From: Tannerella sp.
Lineage (GTDB): Bacteria; Bacteroidota; Bacteroidia; Bacteroidales; Tannerellaceae
Length of the DNA: 43,815 nucleotides
Assembly (NCBI GenBank): GCA_031283785.1
Contig: JAITBC010000282.1
Coordinates: forward strand, 1-43,815
Direction of reading: 5' to 3'
A model generated the notes under the pieces. It saw nothing but the letters and a program-made list of their open reading frames with translations, ran no database searches and was not told the DNA's origin. Below are positions 6,601 through 43,815 of this stretch, one piece after another. The first letter of the stretch is position 1. Each line of letters starts with the position of its first letter. The translations under genes and the position numbers were made by a program.

Positions 6601-8137
6601 ATTTTGCGTAGCTTACGGCGCGGGTTTCGCGGATAACGGTTATCTTCACCTGTCCGGGATATGTCATTTCGTCCTGAATCTTCTTCGCTATCTCGCCGGA
6701 GAGATTTTCGACATCCTTATCGTTTATTTTGTCGGCTCCGACTATCACGCGCAGCTCGCGACCGGCCTGTATGGCGTATGTGTTAATTACGCCGGGGTAT
6801 GACATTGCTAATTGTTCGAGGTCGTTAAGGCGCTTGATATATGCTTCCACGATTTCACGGCGTGCGCCAGGACGGGCGCCTGATATGGCGTCGCAGACCT
6901 GTACGATTGGCGCAATCATTGTCTGCATCTCCATTTCGTCATGGTGCGATCCGACGGCGTTGCATATATCGGGTTTCTCTTTATATTTTTCACAAAGTTT
7001 CATTCCTAATAATGCATGTGGCAATTCCGGTTCGTCGTCGGGCACCTTGCCTATGTCGTGCAGCAGCCCTGCACGGCGTGCTTTTTTGGGATTAAGCCCG
7101 AGTTCCGATGCCATCGTAGCGCATAAGTTTGCCGTTTCACGGGCATGTTGCAACAGGTTCTGACCGTACGACGATCGGTATTTCATTTTTCCTATCAGCC
7201 GGATCAGTTCCGGATGAAGTCCATGGATGCCGAGGTCTATCGCTGTGCGTTTTCCTGTTTCGATGACTTCTTCTTCGACTTGTTTTTTTACTTTGCCGAC
7301 TACCTCCTCGATGCGTGCCGGATGGATACGTCCGTCCTGTACCAGCTGATGAAGCGCGAGGCGGGCTATTTCGCGGCGAACAGGATCAAAACCCGACAGC
7401 ACGATCGCCTCGGGCGCGTCGTCGACGATTATTTCGATGCCGGTGACGCTTTCGAGGGCGCGGATATTACGGCCTTCACGCCCGATGATACGTCCTTTCA
7501 TCTCATCGGATTCTATGGGGAATACGGTTACGGAGTTTTCTATGGCCGTTTCGGTAGCCACCCGTTGAATTGATTGGATAACGATTTTCTTTGCTTCCAT
7601 GCCGGCCGTCATCTTCGCTTCTTCTATTATTTCGTTGATATAGGAAGACGCGTCGGTTTTAGCTTCGTCTTTCAGCGATTCGACGAGACGGTCTTTCGCG
7701 TCTTTAGCCGACAGGCCGGAAATCGTTTCCAGCTGTTCAACTTCACGTTGATGCATTTTTTCCAAGTCCTGCTGTTTCTTTTCCACAACAGCCAACTGCG
7801 ACATGAGATTTTCTTTAATGGCATCTATTTCCGCGTTTTTACGCTGTACTTCTTCCTGTCTTTGTAAGAATACCGTCTCGCGCTGTTTGAGTTTTGCTTC
7901 CGCAGACTGTATTTTTGCGTTTCGTGCCGTCACTTGTTTTTCCAATTCCGCTTTTAGTTGGATAAATTTCTCCTTCACTTCAAGCATTTTATTTTTCTTC
8001 ATCACTTCGGTCTCCTTTTCGATTTCCTTCAGCTTTTTTTCATGCTTTGATTTTGAAAGGATACGTATGATGACCCATGTCGACAGGCCGCCTGTTATAA
8101 ATGCGGCAATTATTGCTATTATATGCGTTACATCCAT
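6599..8137 (-). CDS. rny: Ribonuclease Y
   Basis: This 512-residue protein has the full RNase Y layout: an N-terminal membrane helix (residues 4-24), a long charged coiled coil (about 30-195), a KH RNA-binding domain with [15 protein letters not shown] (about 210-275), and an HD hydrolase domain with [10 protein letters not shown] and GSHHDE (about 325-420). RNase Y is a membrane-anchored endonuclease that starts mRNA decay. Both the HD metal-binding pair and the KH GxxG loop are intact and the length is standard. It lies downstream of zapA on the same strand behind a terminator-like hairpin, so it is probably expressed partly by readthrough or from a promoter I cannot recognise. Confidence 0.97.
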
Positions 8138-37205: not shown

Positions 37206-37283
37206 AAAAAAGCGAGGTTTAACACCCCGCCTTACATGTCTTCACAACGGAATAATCCTTATTGTGATTTGCTTCAGAATTTA
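37206..37283 (-). ncRNA. tracrRNA of the type II CRISPR locus
   Basis: Read on the minus strand, the predicted RNA begins after a consensus promoter. It contains an anti-repeat (CTGAAGCAAATCACAATAA, ending about 37259), whose complement TTGTGATTTGCTT resembles the 5' half of Bacteroidetes type II-C CRISPR repeats (from memory, GTTGTGATTTGCTTT-). Next come the nexus hairpin GGATTATTCC (37258-37249) and a 3' terminator: 7-bp stem 37230-37224 with 37218-37212, then six Us. The length of about 78 bases is short but complete. It would pair with pre-crRNA and load Cas9. It is divergent from cas9. The array is outside the window, so pairing is not shown. Confidence 0.78.
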
Positions 37284-37288
37284 TACGG

Positions 37289-37319
37289 CAAAGGTAGATA
37301 TATTTTTTTATATTGCAAG
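37289..37319 (-). promoter_or_regulatory. Promoter of the tracrRNA
   Basis: Minus-strand CTTG (37319-37316) and TACCTTTG (37296-37289) are 19 bases apart, a clean Bacteroidetes promoter. Transcription should begin near 37283, just before the anti-repeat. Confidence 0.7.
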
Positions 37320-37355: not shown

Positions 37356-40300
37356 ATGAAAATAGTATTGGGTTTGGATATAGGCACAAACAGCATTGGC
37401 TGGGTGCTGGTCAACAAAGATGAAGAAGATAAACTGCTGCGAATAGAAGCTGCGGGAAGCCGCATTATTCCCATGAGTCAGGATATTTTGGGAAAGTTCG
37501 ACGAAGGAAATTCGGATTCCCAGACTGCTGACAGAACGAAATTTCGCGGAACACGAAGATTGCGCGAACGGCATTTGCTCCGGCGCGAACGGTTGCACCG
37601 CGTGTTGCACGTGCTGGGATTTCTCCCTGAGCACTACGAACAGTACATCGATTTTGAGAAACGCCGGGGCAAATTTGTGCAGGATACCGAACCTAAATTG
37701 CCATGGAAAAAGAACCCGGACGGCGAGATGACGTTTTTGTTTCAGGAATCTTTCAACGAAATGATGGCAGATTTTGCTCAAACCCAACCGCAACTGTTGA
37801 CCGATAATAAAAAAATTCCCTACGACTGGACGATTTATTATTTACGGAAAAAAGCCTTACAACAAAAAATAGCAAAAGAAGAACTGGCATGGATTCTTTT
37901 AAATTTTAATCAGAAACGCGGATATTATCAGTTACGTGGCGAGGAGGAAGAAGAAAATCCCAACAAATTACAGGAATATCACTCGTTGAGAATCGTCGAC
38001 GTTGTTGCAGACGAAAAGCCCAACAGCAAAGGAGAAACCTGGTATTCACTGCATCTGGAAAACGGGTGGATTTATCGCCGTTCCGGCAGGATTCCTTTGT
38101 ACGAATGGAAAGATAAAGTTCGGAATTTCATCGTTACTACCGAGTTGAACGACGACGGCACTGTAAAAACCGATAAGGAAGGCTATGAAAGACGATCGTT
38201 TCGCGCTCCCGGTGAAGATGACTGGACTTTGTTGAAAAAGAAGACCGAGGCGGATATTGAACGATCCGACAAAACTGTCGGAACATATATTTATGAAACT
38301 TTGCGTCAAAACCCAAGTCGGAAAATTCGCGGGAAACTGGTACGCACGATTGAACGCAAATTTTATAAGGACGAACTGAGGAAAATCCTTGAAAAGCAGG
38401 TAGAATTGCAGCCTGATTTGTTCGGCGAGGAATTATACGGCGATTGTGTCAGGGAGTTGTATAAAAATAATGAAGCGCATCAGCTTGTTTTGAGCAAAAG
38501 GGATTTCGTTCATTTATTCGTAGAAGATATTATTTTCTATCAGCGCCCGCTGCGAAGCCGGAAATCGGCTATTGGAAACTGTACGCTGGAATTTAGGAAA
38601 TATAACGACAGGGAAGGCAATGAAATAACGGAATATCTGAAGGCTACGCCCAAGTCGAATCCGCTGTATCAGGAATTTCGTTTGTGGCAATGGTTATTCA
38701 ACCTGAGAATTTATAGAAAAGACGATGATACGGATGTTACGGCTCAATTTCTGAACAGCAGGGAAGATCAGGAAAAACTGTTCGAGTTTTTGATGCAAAA
38801 GAAGGAGGTGAATCACAGGGATGTCCTTCAGTATTTCTTTACTTTACAAGGCCTGAAAGGGAAAACCTTAAATAATGAAATTGCAAAATACCGTTGGAAT
38901 TATGTGTTTGATGATTCTAAGGAAAAAGAAGATGAAAAATCGAAAAAATATCCCTGTAACGAAACCGGTTATGAAATCGGAAGAAGGCTGGGAAAGGTAG
39001 AAAATGTTCCCGCCGGTTTCCTGACGCCCGGAAGAGAGCAAAGTTTGTGGCATATTATCTATTCCGTGACCGATAAAACCGAGTTTGAAAAGGCATTAAA
39101 ATCTTTTGCGAATAAACAGGAATTGGACGAGAAGTCTTTTGTGGAGAATTTCAAGAAATTCCCGCCGTTCAAGAGCGAGTACAGTTCGTTTTCGGAGAAA
39201 GCCGTTAAAAAGTTGTTGCCTTTGATGCGCCTGGGGAAATATTGGAATTGGGACGCCATAGACACGAAGACGAAAGACAGGATATCCAAAATCCTTAGCG
39301 ACGAATATGATGAAAAAATCAAAAACCGCGTACGCGAAAAAGCCATTCATTTGACAGGCAAAAAAGACTTCCATGGTTTGCAGCTGTGGCTTGCCCAGTA
39401 TATTGTATATGACCGCCACTCCGAAGCCGGTACGGCGGACAAATGGAATACGGTTGACGGACTGGAACGATATCTGGAAGATTTCAAGCAACATTCATTA
39501 CGCAATCCGGTTGTCGAGCAGGTAGTTCTGGAAACGCTTCGTGTCGTCAGAGATATTTGGCGGCAATACGGGAACGGTGCGAAAGATTTTTTCAGCGAAA
39601 TCCATGTCGAACTGGGGCGTGAGATGAAAAATAATGCAGAAGAAAGAAGAAAAATAACGAACCGGGTATTGGAAAATGAAAATACAAATCTTCGCATAAA
39701 GGCGTTGCTTGCGGAGTTGCACGACGCCGGCATGGGAAATGTCCGCCCTTATTCGCCTACGCAGCAGGAAATCCTGAAAATTTATGAAGACGGCATCATC
39801 CATTCGGGAATGGAAATCCCTGATGATATTCTAAAAATCAGCAAAACGGCGCAACCGTCAACGTCTGACCTGCAACGCTATAAACTTTGGCTGGAACAGA
39901 AATACCGCTCGCCGTATACAGGAGCAATTATTACATTGAGCAAATTGTTCACTCCCGCATATGAGACAGAACATATTATCCCGCAAAGCCGTTATTTCGA
40001 CGACAGCTTTAGCAATAAGGTTATTTGCGAGTCGGCCGTAAATAAATTAAAAGACAGACAGTTAGGATTTGAATTTATTAAACATCATCATGGAGAAACG
40101 GTAGAAACAGGATTTGGCGATAAGGTAAGGATATTTAATGAAGAAGAATATCAGTCTTTTGTAAAAAAACACTACGCAAAAGATCGTTCCAAGCAGACTA
40201 AACTTTTACTGGAAGAAATACCCGATAAGATGATTGAACGGCAGATGAACGATACGCGCTATATCAGTAAGTTTATTTCTTCCGTTTTGTCGAATATTGT

Positions 40301-41876
40301 TCGTGAAGAGACGAATGATGATAGCGTTAATTCCAAAAATCTCCTGCTCGTAAATGGGAAGATTACTGCTGCTTTAAAGCAGGAATGGGGTTTGAACGAT
40401 GTGTGGAACGATTTGATTATGCCACGTTTTGAACGAATGAATCAATTGACAGGCAGTTCTGCTTTCACAGCTTGGAACGAGCAATATCAGAAATTTCTAC
40501 CAACCGTGCCGTTGGAGTTGTCAAAAGGATTTCAAAAGAAAAGGATCGACCATCGACACCACGCCTTGGATGCATTGATAATTGCTTGTACAACACGCAA
40601 GCATGTCCAGTATTTGAGTAACGAACATTCGCAATCAAAAAATGACGACGTTCGCTACGGGTTAAGACAAAATTTATGTGACAAAATCAAAGCAGACAAA
40701 AATGGCAATTACAGATGGCAGTTTCGCAAACCTTGTGATACCTTTACACAGGATGTACGGACTATACTGGAAAATATCATTATCAGTTTCAAACAGAATC
40801 TGCGAGTAATCAATAAATCGACCAACAAATACCAGGTTTACGAAAATGGGAAGAAAATCCTAAAATCGCAGGAAAAAGGTGATAACTGGGCTATTCGTAA
40901 ACCGTTGCATAAAGATACCGTTTTTGCAAAAGTTGCGCTGCGAAAAGTAAAAACAGTTCGCTTAAGTGAAGCCTTGAAAGATTGGCAATCTATCGTTGAT
41001 ACGAAATTAGAGCAAAAGATTAAAACCATTATTGCCGGATACGGCGGTAACGCCGATTTGGAAAAACTCACCAAATATTTCAAGGGAAGAAAATATAAGT
41101 TTGACGGTGTTGATATTTCAAAAGTGCAGATTTACTATTTTGAAACCGAAAATGCCGCAACACGCAAATCATTGGATACATCTTTTACGGAGAAAGTTGT
41201 CAAAGAATCGGTTACTGATACAGGCATCCAAAAAATCCTTTTGAATCATCTGCAAGCTAAAGGCAATAAATCCGAATTGGCTTTTTCGCCCGAAGGAATA
41301 GAAGAAATGAATAAAAATATCCTTTGGTTGAATGACGGAAAACAGCATCAGCCTGTTTATAAAATGCGCGTGTATGAGCCTGTCGGCAATAAATTTCCGG
41401 TAGGACATGTTGGAAATAAACAGAAAAAATATGTAGAGGCAGCCAAAGGAACTAACCTGTTTTTTGCCGTTTATGCAGACGAAGACGGCAACCGGACATT
41501 TGAAACGATACCATTAAATGTAGTAATAGAACGCTTGAAACAGGGCTTGCGGGAAGTTCCCGAATTTGACGAGAAAGGACATTCCTTGCTGTTCCATTTG
41601 TCGCCCAATGATTTGGTATACGTGCCTGCAACGGAAGATATTGAAAGTAAAGTGCCTGTTAATATGGAGAATCTTCGTCCGGATAGGGTATATAAAATGG
41701 TGTCGTCTTCAGGAAATCAATGTTTTTTTGTCCCGAATAATGTTGCAAGTCCTATTATGCAGACGAAAGAATTGGGTGCAAATAATAAATCCGAAAAATC
41801 GTGGGATGGATTAATGATAAAACAGGTCGGAATAAAAATTAAAGTGAATAGAATGGGTATGTTGATAAGTTGTTGA
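37356..41876 (+). CDS. cas9: Type II CRISPR endonuclease Cas9
   Basis: The intact 1506-residue protein shows every Cas9 landmark: RuvC-I IVLGLDIGTNSIGWVL with D8; an Arg-rich bridge helix about 60-88 (RRLRERHLLRRERL); RuvC-II HVELGREMK with E752; an HNH domain with TEHIIPQSRYFDDSF, H873 and N896; and RuvC-III HHALDALIIA with H1069 and D1072. The residue before the HNH histidine is E872 instead of the Asp of S. pyogenes Cas9, which I recall as common in Bacteroidetes homologues. Cas9 cuts DNA guided by crRNA:tracrRNA. Size and sequence suggest the large Bacteroidetes II-C group. A tracrRNA lies upstream and another tracrRNA-like RNA downstream. An 11-bp tandem duplication sets the stop codon. 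Confidence 0.97.
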   Translation: MKIVLGLDIGTNSIGWVLVNKDEEDKLLRIEAAGSRIIPMSQDILGKFDEGNSDSQTADRTKFRGTRRLRERHLLRRERLHRVLHVLGFLPEHYEQYIDFEKRRGKFVQDTEPKLPWKKNPDGEMTFLFQESFNEMMADFAQTQPQLLTDNKKIPYDWTIYYLRKKALQQKIAKEELAWILLNFNQKRGYYQLRGEEEEENPNKLQEYHSLRIVDVVADEKPNSKGETWYSLHLENGWIYRRSGRIPLYEWKDKVRNFIVTTELNDDGTVKTDKEGYERRSFRAPGEDDWTLLKKKTEADIERSDKTVGTYIYETLRQNPSRKIRGKLVRTIERKFYKDELRKILEKQVELQPDLFGEELYGDCVRELYKNNEAHQLVLSKRDFVHLFVEDIIFYQRPLRSRKSAIGNCTLEFRKYNDREGNEITEYLKATPKSNPLYQEFRLWQWLFNLRIYRKDDDTDVTAQFLNSREDQEKLFEFLMQKKEVNHRDVLQYFFTLQGLKGKTLNNEIAKYRWNYVFDDSKEKEDEKSKKYPCNETGYEIGRRLGKVENVPAGFLTPGREQSLWHIIYSVTDKTEFEKALKSFANKQELDEKSFVENFKKFPPFKSEYSSFSEKAVKKLLPLMRLGKYWNWDAIDTKTKDRISKILSDEYDEKIKNRVREKAIHLTGKKDFHGLQLWLAQYIVYDRHSEAGTADKWNTVDGLERYLEDFKQHSLRNPVVEQVVLETLRVVRDIWRQYGNGAKDFFSEIHVELGREMKNNAEERRKITNRVLENENTNLRIKALLAELHDAGMGNVRPYSPTQQEILKIYEDGIIHSGMEIPDDILKISKTAQPSTSDLQRYKLWLEQKYRSPYTGAIITLSKLFTPAYETEHIIPQSRYFDDSFSNKVICESAVNKLKDRQLGFEFIKHHHGETVETGFGDKVRIFNEEEYQSFVKKHYAKDRSKQTKLLLEEIPDKMIERQMNDTRYISKFISSVLSNIVREETNDDSVNSKNLLLVNGKITAALKQEWGLNDVWNDLIMPRFERMNQLTGSSAFTAWNEQYQKFLPTVPLELSKGFQKKRIDHRHHALDALIIACTTRKHVQYLSNEHSQSKNDDVRYGLRQNLCDKIKADKNGNYRWQFRKPCDTFTQDVRTILENIIISFKQNLRVINKSTNKYQVYENGKKILKSQEKGDNWAIRKPLHKDTVFAKVALRKVKTVRLSEALKDWQSIVDTKLEQKIKTIIAGYGGNADLEKLTKYFKGRKYKFDGVDISKVQIYYFETENAATRKSLDTSFTEKVVKESVTDTGIQKILLNHLQAKGNKSELAFSPEGIEEMNKNILWLNDGKQHQPVYKMRVYEPVGNKFPVGHVGNKQKKYVEAAKGTNLFFAVYADEDGNRTFETIPLNVVIERLKQGLREVPEFDEKGHSLLFHLSPNDLVYVPATEDIESKVPVNMENLRPDRVYKMVSSSGNQCFFVPNNVASPIMQTKELGANNKSEKSWDGLMIKQVGIKIKVNRMGMLISC

Positions 41877-42007: not shown

Positions 42008-42018
42008 TTGCAAGATGT
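42008..42018 (+). other. Exact copy of the putative guide segment
   Basis: TTGCAAGATGT here is identical to 42257-42267, the bases just 5' of the repeat-like arm of the second tracr-like RNA. It is followed by AAAAATAAT, where a PAM would lie, and ends 16 bases before the -33 element of the promoter at 42035. It could be a Cas9 target site, a regulator site or chance. Confidence 0.4.
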
Positions 42019-42034
42019 AAAAATAATAAGGAAA

Positions 42035-42065
42035 ATTGTTGGAAATAGAATAATGCTTATCTTTG
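42035..42065 (+). promoter_or_regulatory. Promoter upstream of the tracr-like RNA, zinc-finger gene and cas1
   Basis: ATTG (42035-42038) and TATCTTTG (42058-42065) are 19 bases apart. Transcription would begin near 42072 and could run through the structured leader into the second tracr-like RNA and, by readthrough, the zinc-finger gene and cas1. Confidence 0.6.
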
Positions 42066-42140
42066 TTGTCGGATACCAATTCCATTGTAAAAGACGGTAG
42101 AACCCAATTTCTATGAAAAAGTAATGGATGAAATATCAAA

Positions 42141-42181
42141 GTAATCAAAAGATTACGGCTAAAGCGTCCAACCCTTTAGTC
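42141..42181 (+). other. Two adjacent hairpins in the leader
   Basis: GTAATC-AAAA-GATTAC (42141-42156) is followed directly by an 8-bp stem with one G-T pair (42157-42164 with 42174-42181, 9-base loop). No U-tract follows, so they look like leader RNA structure and not a terminator. Confidence 0.5.
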
Positions 42182-42251
42182 TCGTGTAAGAAGAACCTTA
42201 TGCGTTTGATTTTTTACATTTTGTTTAAATAACTCGACAAGTTTGTTTGGT

Positions 42252-42259
42252 TATAATTG
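42252..42259 (+). promoter_or_regulatory. Possible internal -7 box of the second tracr-like RNA
   Basis: TATAATTG differs from TAnnTTTG at one position and has no good -33 partner. If used, the RNA would start near 42266 and lack the guide-like segment. Confidence 0.25.
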
Positions 42260-42350
42260 CAAGATGTGCTGTAATTTCCTGAAGAAGAAGTTACAAAAAG
42301 GATTATTCCGTGGCTGAAGCCATAAAGCGGGGATTATTCCTCGCTTTTTT
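42257..42350 (+). ncRNA. Second tracrRNA-like RNA with single-guide architecture
   Basis: From 5' to 3' it has a guide-like segment TTGCAAGATGT (42257-42267); a repeat-like arm TGTAATTTC (42270-42278) that pairs with an anti-repeat-like arm GAAGTTACA (42287-42295) across an 8-base loop; nexus hairpin GGATTATTCC (42300-42309); hairpin TGGC-TGAA-GCCA (42311-42322); and terminator stem 42327-42333 with 42338-42344 plus six Ts. AAGGATTATTCCGT and the terminator-stem plan (GCGGGG...CCTCGC) are shared with the tracrRNA upstream of cas9. The repeat-like arm resembles the complement of that tracrRNA's anti-repeat (TGTnATTTnCT core). The fold joins repeat and anti-repeat in one RNA, as in single-guide RNAs and the S. 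pyogenes long tracrRNA. It could also be a diverged duplicate tracrRNA. Confidence 0.6.
42327..42350 (+). terminator. Intrinsic terminator of the second tracr-like RNA
   Basis: A 7-bp stem with one G-T pair, TTAT loop and six Ts. It lies 46 bases before the zinc-finger gene ATG, so any transcript of zinc-finger gene and cas1 from upstream promoters must read through it. I see no consensus promoter between 42351 and 42395. Confidence 0.75.
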
Positions 42351-42395
42351 GAAAGAGATGTTAAATATAATATAATAAATTAAAAACAAAAAACA

Positions 42396-43190
42396 ATGGA
42401 ACAAAATCCGAAATCAGAAGGCAAGTGCCTTTTCTGTGGCAAAACATTTTTAAAGGCAGGTATTATCCGTCATTTGCAAAGCCACTTGAAACAAAAAACA
42501 AAAGAAAATGCGGCGGGGCAGTCGTATCTGGTAAAAGTGGAATCCGATCCGAAATGGGGTGCTTCACCTTATTTTCTTGCGCTTTGGATAGACAGTAAAG
42601 CAACACTGAAAAATATTGACCGGTTTCTTCGGGATATCTGGCTCGAATGTTGTGGACACATGAGCGCATTTACCAATCCGAAAAACCGTCGACAGAACGA
42701 TAGTATGTGGAGTTTTTTTGATGCAGAAGAATTGTTGGCGAAAGGCAAACAGAAAGAATACGAAAAACTCATGGAAAACATAAAAGGCGAAGTGCCTATG
42801 AGCCGTAGTGTTGACAAGATTTTTCATAAAGGGTTAAAACTGGAATATGAATATGATTTCGGCAGTTCAACCGAACTTTTATTGACTATTATGGAAGAAT
42901 ATCCTGTCAAAGCCGATGGAAAAATCGTTTTACTCTCGCGTAATGAACCGCCGGAATGGTTGTGCGAAGTATGCCAAAAAGAGCCGGCTACACAGATCTG
43001 TACTGTTCATGATTGGGATGAAGACAGTCTGTTCTGCGATAAATGCGCCAAGAAACATGCAAAAGAATGTGAAGATTTCAGAGATTATGCCGCCATGCCG
43101 GTGGTTAATTCGCCGAGAATGGGTGTTTGCGCATACACAGGCGGATGTATTGATACGGAAAGAGATGGCGTTTTTGTGAAAAAGTCATGA
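42396..43190 (+). CDS. Zinc-finger/pRiA4b ORF3-like accessory protein of the CRISPR locus
   Basis: The 264-residue protein has an N-terminal C2H2 finger (C11, C14, H26, H30), a central domain resembling the plasmid pRiA4b ORF-3 family (SYLVKVESDPKW, LKNIDRFLRDIWLECCGHMS, LEYEYDFGSSTELLL, about 43-165), and a C-terminal B-box-like zinc module (C190, C193, C202, H205, C214, C217, H221, C225) before a tail with RMGVCAYTGGC. There is no signal peptide. Its TGA overlaps the cas1 ATG as ATGA, so it is translationally coupled to cas1. It occupies the cas9-cas1 gap, where typical II-C loci have no extra gene. A role in spacer acquisition or in regulating the locus is plausible but inferred; nucleic-acid or protein binding is suggested by the fingers. 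Confidence 0.8.
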   Translation: MEQNPKSEGKCLFCGKTFLKAGIIRHLQSHLKQKTKENAAGQSYLVKVESDPKWGASPYFLALWIDSKATLKNIDRFLRDIWLECCGHMSAFTNPKNRRQNDSMWSFFDAEELLAKGKQKEYEKLMENIKGEVPMSRSVDKIFHKGLKLEYEYDFGSSTELLLTIMEEYPVKADGKIVLLSRNEPPEWLCEVCQKEPATQICTVHDWDEDSLFCDKCAKKHAKECEDFRDYAAMPVVNSPRMGVCAYTGGCIDTERDGVFVKKS

Positions 43191-43815
43191 TCAAGCGAAC
43201 GCTTTATTTTGGCAATTCCGCTTATCTAAGCATGAAGAATAAGCAGTTGATTATCAAACTCCCGGAAGTTGAAAAGAATGATTCTTTGCCTGAATCATTC
43301 AAAGAAAACAGCATTAAAACCATTCCTGTTGAAGACATTGGCGTTATCGTCTTGGATAACAGGCAAATTACCATTACCCATGGTTTGATGGAAACCTTGC
43401 TGGCAAACAATTGTGCCCTCATCACCTGCGATAGCAACCGGATGCCTGCCGGATTGCTCCTCCCGTTAAGCGGCAATACGCTTCAGAACGAACGTTTTAC
43501 GGCACAGATTGAAGCGTCGCTTCCATTAAAAAAGCAATTGTGGCAACAAACCGTTATTGCGAAAATCGAAAATCAGGCAGCAGTATTGAAACAATGCCGT
43601 AACGCCGAAATGCGTAATATGCTGGCATGGGCAAGTCAAGTCAAAAGTGGCGATACCGATAATCTGGAGGGACGGGCAGCAGTGTATTATTGGAAGACTG
43701 TATTCCCTGATATTGAGAGCTTTACACGAAATAGCGAAGGCGTTCCACCAAATAATTTATTGAATTACGGTTATGCGATTTTGCGAGCAGTTGTGGCACG
43801 CTCTCTTGTGGCAAG
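43187..43815 (+). CDS. cas1: CRISPR integrase Cas1 (3' end outside window)
   Basis: The frame from the ATG at 43187 stays open to the window end (209 codons). MIKRTLYFGNSAYLSMKNKQ is the usual type II Cas1 opening. It is followed by VEDIGVIVLDNRQITITHGL, the NNCALITCDSNRMPAGLLLP strand, the helical ERFTAQIEASLPLKKQLWQQ region and LEGRAAVYYWKTVFP, which carries the first metal-binding glutamate of the family. NLLNYGYAILRAVVARSL is the conserved helix before the second catalytic site. Cas1 with Cas2 inserts new spacers. The remaining third of the protein and cas2 lie beyond 43815. Confidence 0.95.
   Translation, partial: MIKRTLYFGNSAYLSMKNKQLIIKLPEVEKNDSLPESFKENSIKTIPVEDIGVIVLDNRQITITHGLMETLLANNCALITCDSNRMPAGLLLPLSGNTLQNERFTAQIEASLPLKKQLWQQTVIAKIENQAAVLKQCRNAEMRNMLAWASQVKSGDTDNLEGRAAVYYWKTVFPDIESFTRNSEGVPPNNLLNYGYAILRAVVARSLVA

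Follow-up and report, generated by a model that had tools for sequence, protein, structure and literature searches.

The single-guide RNA was an engineering invention before it was found in type II-A streptococci, and Cas9 cutting is expected to need a longer pairing than 11-13 nt. In type I CreTA modules, which are known with Cascade, the target lies at a promoter and is followed by a conserved stretch and then by the guide RNA. A natural single guide has been described as tracr-L in the type II-A system of Streptococcus pyogenes, where guide and tracr scaffold lie in one RNA; this RNA has an 11-nt match beside a PAM at a cas promoter, and cleavage of the target is apparently prevented (PMC8616872, PMC11417352). 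The former source places tracr-L in some II-A systems only (PMC8616872). CreRs are mini-CRISPR regulatory RNAs, crRNA-like molecules that guide Cas proteins to a cas promoter; they are described for types I and V-A, and CreTA as repressing through partial complementarity (PMC12737573). A further kind of extra small RNA linked to Cas9 is the scaRNA of Neisseria meningitidis (type II-C) and Francisella novicida. The meningococcal scaRNA has been proposed to resemble an sgRNA (PMC13431127), and the targets of scaRNAs are efeO mRNA or lipoprotein genes (PMC13431127, PMC8730458). Among the titles listed by literature searches, none concerned a natural single guide of type II-C that is aimed at a promoter.

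The DNA analysed here, called the window below, is a stretch of 43,815 nt from Tannerella sp. (GCA_031283785.1, contig JAITBC010000282.1, positions 1 to 43,815, forward strand), which stops within cas1, with the CRISPR array lying beyond it. Its probable assignment to type II-C is based on the NMENI-type cas1 in the window and on the cas9-cas1-cas2-sized gene order in relatives. A preliminary description had claimed a tracrRNA-like RNA, built as a natural single guide, between cas9 and the adaptation genes. The features of this region are as follows:

37206-37290, minus strand: canonical tracrRNA with anti-repeat, divergent from cas9 (inverted match, reading)
37356-41876, plus strand: cas9, 1506 aa (TIGR01865, RuvC and HNH domains)
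42008-42018, plus strand: candidate target, a second copy of the 11-nt guide (sequence match)
42019-42024, plus strand: PAM-like AAAAAT, or NNAAAT (flank comparison)
42058-42065, plus strand: presumed Bacteroidetes-type -7 box TATCTTTG, 39 nt 3' of the target (consensus match)
42090-42256, plus strand: conserved leader with hairpins and a T-run (comparison among loci)
42257-42267, plus strand: candidate guide (seed) TTGCAAGATGT, abutting the repeat-like arm on its 5' side (match to target)
42268-42278, plus strand: repeat-like upstream arm, of which 42270-42278 pairs with 42287-42295 (fold, covariation)
42279-42286, plus strand: loop between the repeat-like and anti-repeat arms (fold)
42287-42295, plus strand: anti-repeat arm (fold, covariation)
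42298-42311, plus strand: nexus AAGGATTATTCCGT (fold, match to the canonical tracrRNA)
42310-42323, plus strand: post-nexus hairpin with a GGC/GCC core (fold, covariation)
42324-42350, plus strand: intrinsic terminator, hairpin and T-run (fold, covariation)
42396-43190, plus strand: ZF, hypothetical protein without a Pfam or NCBIfam family
43187-43813, plus strand: cas1, cut by the window end (TIGR03639, NMENI type)

Folding of the region bears out the RNA that had been described. The predicted fold of 42268-42350 runs, in order, through repeat-like arm, loop, anti-repeat arm, nexus, hairpin and terminator, which is the order of a single guide, and 42250-42351 has a minimum free energy of -32.3 kcal/mol (z -3.9), which none of 200 shuffles equalled. 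The anti-repeat had been said to pair with the upstream arm of the same molecule, and the arms at 42270-42278 (TGTAATTTC) and 42287-42295 (GAAGTTACA) do form a 9-bp stem with one G-U pair. The 14-base nexus recurs, as claimed, on the minus strand upstream of cas9 within the canonical tracrRNA, as part of an inverted match of 24 nt (37247-37270 and 42288-42311, 88%), and the likeness of the upstream arm to the repeat implied by that first tracrRNA also holds (GCTGTAATTTCCT versus GTTGTGATTTGCT). Judged from these letters, the RNA is apparently a degenerate repeat fused to a copy of the tracrRNA. The Rfam tracrRNA model RF02348 is similar in layout and gives the best Rfam match, a full-length one at 42269-42351 that leads the five listed up to E 5, yet its 21.6 bits stay far below the cut-off of 70.

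Five homologues lie directly 3' of cas9 in other genomes (L001 and L429-L432). A covariance model made from the window and L001 was run on 82 sources (the window, 80 genome loci and one viral locus), where these two, which are the model's own training set, scored 103 and 110 bits and the next, a canonical tracrRNA, 61.9. In 393 genomes sampled from the order, 92 match at E <= 0.001, one of them, the genome of L001, with 110 bits and the rest with at most 60.4; among the 123 genomes of the family of L001, five match at E <= 1e-9, and here too a single one reaches 110 bits. The 299 genomes of the family of L002 yielded five matches at E <= 1e-10, read as four natural single guides (L420-L423, with L429-L432 as their wider stretches) and one ordinary tracrRNA near a repeat, and the 101 genomes of the family of L003 yielded five, none of the window type and two of the array-end type described below. 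With 62.0 bits under this model, the weakest of the four new single guides does not stand above canonical tracrRNAs, so the classes cannot be told apart by score. A search of 191 loci for hairpins of at least 8 bp before a nexus, which imperfect stems such as that of L431 escape, gave no further copy of the window type, and a Cas9 scan of viral contigs found one relative (L081), whose flanks, searched for 1.5 kb in each direction, hold a canonical tracrRNA and no second RNA of this kind. Three of the four belong to one genus, in which 3 of 11 genomes have the single guide and that of L002 is without it; in the genus of the fourth it is 1 of 13. One match to a looser nexus pattern is at L271, and L432 carries, on the same stretch as its single guide, two more nexus elements (1046 and 12956) with canonical-looking anti-repeats.

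By the preliminary description, a self-stem lost in relatives beside an anti-repeat that pairs perfectly with the array repeat would have spoken against its reading; this is not borne out, as the self-stem is kept in the relatives and the anti-repeat pairs only weakly with the implied repeat (see below). A covariance test was run on the stem. In the alignment of six sequences, two pairs have compensatory changes (C-G to U-A in three sequences, A-U to C-G in one) and 95.5% of the cells are paired, with 3 of 66 unpaired; the stem reaches 14 bp in L429, L430 and L432. The whole structure is 98.1% paired versus 94.2% in shuffles, a level reached by none of 500, and the covariation score was likewise reached by none. 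Two other statistics, the count of double-change pairs and that of further pair types, were reached by 13 and 152 of the 500 shuffles, respectively, and like the three unpaired cells they count against the explanation preferred below. When the partners are slid by one to three columns, pairing falls to 46-60%. Prediction and covariation agree that both arms pair inside one RNA with nexus and terminator and, together with guides and targets that covary beside a PAM-like flank, they strongly support the reading of 42257-42350 as a natural single guide.

In the whole 43.8 kb, the 11 nt in front of the repeat-like arm have a single further copy, at 42008-42018 and in the same orientation, where AAAAAT follows; the preliminary description had not named this target. 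Over the whole window, with one mismatch allowed, such a recurrence is unremarkable, two copies of the 11-mer being present in 16 of 100 shuffles. The exact 11-mer arose 5 times in 20000 shuffles of the intergenic region in the window and 3 times in 20000 for L001, in no case followed by NNAAA; PAM-anchored matches of at least 11 nt arose in 1 of 2000 intergenic shuffles. Guide and target are identical over 11-13 nt in five of the six loci, although the guides differ between loci (ttgcaagatgt in the window and L001, ttgcgaggtgt in L429, tgtgcaaggtgt in L430 and atttgtaagatgt in L432), and in these five the pairing stops there. The sixth, L431, has acttcaagatat versus acttcaagatgt, with one mismatch at the second seed position. 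A guide directed to the cas9 promoter was considered and rejected: TTGCAAG occurs at 37313, but its PAM-proximal end is mismatched.

Short guide/target matches are also found at solitary stray repeats without a fused RNA. These repeats, with short self-matching spacers, lie near cas9 or cas1:

L002, 12825-12849: solitary repeat, match of 11 nt
L052, 6913-6935: solitary repeat, match of 9 nt
L026, 9918-9941: solitary repeat, match of 10 nt
L315, 7963-7989: solitary repeat, match of 13 nt
L322, 7756-7779: solitary repeat with a weaker pair, match of 10 nt, two mismatches in the repeat and the least regular layout

They may be CreR-like elements in Cas9 loci, and L002, L052, L026 and L315 look like CreR; unlike in CreR, the protein here is Cas9 and the tracrRNA is separate or fused. 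A search for pairs adjacent to repeats gave 28, from which 7 canonical anti-repeat rows were set aside before counting (the window, L066, L287, this one with NNAAA, L282 twice, L332 and L362). NNAAA accompanies 5 of the 6 remaining pairs with at most two repeat mismatches, the exception being L019, which is in an array, and 1 of the 15 with three or four, namely that of the window. With the repeat reversed, complemented or rotated as a control, NNAAA accompanied 0, 1 and 2 pairs, each of which had four repeat mismatches. When 11 guides were compared with 11 regions, 10 of the 11 had a PAM-anchored exact match of 9-13 nt in their own region, and the 110 cells for other regions stayed at 8 nt or less, save two window/L001 cells in which the guides are identical. 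Without the anchor, six further cross cells of the 110 reach 10 of 11 nt, so the 10 of 11 in L431 is no better than the best cross-locus counts, which speaks against the explanation preferred below.

NNAAA stands beside 10 of the 11 targets, and position six is T in 9 of the 11. AAAAAT flanks the targets of the window, L430, L002, L052 and L026; the others have AAAAAG (L429), GAAAAT (L431), AGAAAT (L432), TGAAAT (L315) and ACAAAA (L322). The exception is L001 with AAAACT, which again counts against the preferred explanation. All three phage-matching spacers of the L037 array have NNAAAT at their best-matching sites (ACAAAT, CTAAAT and GCAAAT), and less similar phage copies of the third site have GTAAAT and GAAAGT. 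The PI region of L037 is 58% identical to that of the window Cas9, compared with 65% for L003 and 47% for L051; the single protospacers of L003 (ACATGT) and L051 (CAATAA) argue against NNAAAT, and the PI region of L003 is nearer to that of the window than is that of L037. Partial or locus-to-locus spacer matches (L026, L286, L308) gave no consistent flank. In the search of arrays against phages, L019 matched a tRNA in a Streptomyces phage, L007 and L032 matched a Riemerella phage, and the L005 array had no match; the 64 spacers of L026, searched against the three genomes of its genus, matched only their own array contig. Elsewhere, the PAM of Flavobacterium psychrophilum Cas9 is given as NNAAAG, refined to SNAAAG (PMC12609912), and type II-C PAMs are described as diverse (PMC8482600).

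By the Bacteroidetes consensus TAnnTTTG, the octamer at 42058-42065 is what we take to be a -7 box. A perfect box lies 22-39 nt 3' of the target in four of the six single-guide loci (the window, L001, L430, L432); L429 and L431 have a near match there by eye, and in L429 a perfect box overlaps the target. At L002, L052, L026 and L315 a -7 box facing the guide RNA lies 9-25 nt downstream of the target, an arrangement that L322 does not share. Because of these positions across the single-guide and solo-repeat loci, the usual partner of the target would be the promoter ahead of the guide RNA itself. The window thereby has, as expected of a natural single guide, a short guide with a PAM-adjacent target at a cas-locus promoter, where the promoter is called by consensus only and the PAM is supported from one relative.

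A leader with hairpins lies between promoter and single guide in five of the six loci. In the alignment of these five, from which L431 was left out as being without a leader on reading, 7 of 21 predicted pairs have double changes; L431 combines the absent leader with the guide mismatch. Compared with Rfam, the leader matched no family at gathering score. As to a possible coding role, each of the five leaders is crossed by an open frame whose end is hydrophobic; they have no common start codon, an in-frame ATG near the start of the frame being present only in the window and L430. The position before the adaptation genes, part of the preliminary description, stands for the window, where ZF and then cas1 follow, and fails as a general statement. 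ZF follows the RNA also in L429, where it is cut by the contig end, in L431 and, by its first codons, in L001; L430 and L432 have other genes there, which are not adaptation genes, and control of adaptation is therefore not established as the purpose. In L026, cas9 starts 73 nt past the guide on the same strand. As the adaptation genes follow the RNA in only some loci, they may not be its main object, which to judge by the conserved structure may be the leader RNA instead. ZF owes its name to one database entry that calls a relative C2H2-type; it has 4323 homologues at E <= 0.001 and a poor AlphaFold model (pLDDT 37). Of 82 loci, three (the window, L051, L052) have it between cas9 and cas1, some contigs ending too early to judge.

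It is likely that the RNA is a type II-C natural single guide which, pairing through its seed alone, steers Cas9 to the region of its own promoter and acts as a feedback repressor. The 11-nt seed would take Cas9 to 42008-42018, beside the NNAAAT PAM and just upstream of the 42058 box. Transcripts from there would cover the leader and the guide RNA and, through read-through, would extend into ZF-cas1. With pairing that stops after 11 nt, Cas9 is expected to bind but not to cut; it would repress this promoter in a negative feedback loop and probably sits at the promoter-side site as a switch. The predicted structure, its conservation, the guide-target covariation and the agreeing PAM-side flanks are observed, and from them we infer transcription, Cas9 loading, binding without cleavage and repression. 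Transcription from 42058 alone would give the guide a 5' extension of about 190 nt, which counts against this explanation.

A special case of the feedback reading, an unlikely one, is a CreTA-like guard in which Cas9 and the single guide would repress a harmful leader RNA or peptide encoded at 42090-42256. The order of target, promoter, leader and guide would fit such a guard, as would the conservation of the leader in the five aligned loci, its presence without an adjoining ZF/cas1 in L430 and L432, and the sixth locus, L431, which has neither a leader nor a perfect guide. The likeness to CreTA is one of layout only, the toxicity of the leader being putative and its five versions sharing no start codon; there are six loci in all, and the leader may be an attenuator or a 5' UTR. 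If the guard reading were true, cells that lose Cas9, or whose Cas9 is blocked by an anti-CRISPR, would be poisoned. The motif is similar across the six single-guide loci, which would also suit an operator placed before two promoters and bound by a regulatory protein such as ZF, with the RNA as a decayed duplicate of the tracrRNA; in L429, 17 of 20 nt agree between the guide region and the target region, which could therefore be duplicated promoter regions. This is very unlikely given that the copies agree within a locus and differ between loci, that the repeat-like arm directly adjoins one of the copies, with NNAAA behind the other in 10 of 11 loci, that unrelated sequences at the solo repeats behave alike and that the self-stem covaries.

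The RNA might instead be an alternative tracrRNA that serves array crRNAs and is no self-contained guide, and it has indeed kept nexus and terminator. Its anti-repeat pairs weakly, at -9.7 kcal/mol and with a bulge, with the repeat implied by the first tracrRNA (the array lying outside the window), which is close to the value for its own arm (-9.2 kcal/mol; -11.7 in L001); the -30.3 kcal/mol of the first tracrRNA with that repeat holds by construction, because the implied repeat was written from this tracrRNA itself. An alternative tracrRNA is highly improbable, since it leaves the guide-target matches unexplained and the unimolecular self-stem covaries over six loci. Least credible of all is a degenerate, non-functional relic, for which the narrow distribution would speak; structure, guide-target match and flank are all kept over diverged loci.

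Under the feedback reading, the RNA shares with tracr-L the union of guide and scaffold, but tracr-L is the long form from a II-A tracrRNA locus, whereas here a separate second gene lies 3' of cas9, and the promoter that precedes this gene carries a target of its own which covaries with the guide. It is not tracr-L proper, as the canonical tracrRNA is separate and cas1 matches TIGR03639. The scaRNAs differ in having no cas-locus promoter target with a covarying seed. If the feedback reading is true, this would be a second natural origin of the single-guide RNA, probably an independent one, and RNA-guided CRISPR self-control would extend to type II-C. The covariation of guide and target among species predicts the regulatory site with single-base precision, which makes it open to direct test. 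L002, with a solo repeat and a tracrRNA, shares its genus with three of the fused forms, which is possibly a before-and-after of the origin of a single guide.

Another fused type was also seen, in which a very small array ends in a repeat that is joined straight to the anti-repeat (e.g. GTTGTGATTTG-CTTT-CAAATCACAAT):

L433, 8054-8133: array-end fused single guide
L434, 8168-8247: array-end fused single guide
L284, nexus at 7922 of the reverse complement: array-end fused single guide

In L433 and L434 the fused repeat is preceded by a spacer of about 30 nt, and there is no cas9, ZF or cas2 match on the stretch. Array queries also matched Bacteroides phage BS162P1 (OP172706.1, 61795-61834) and Riemerella phage CRP19 (OR089151.1, 29278-29494); with 12 pieces on one 40-nt place, these matches seem to come mainly from the repeats, and they may represent solitary phage repeats. 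Type II-C arrays with promoters inside the repeats have been described (PMC8616872), and many of the array repeats seen here hold a -7 box of their own, such as TATCTTTG.
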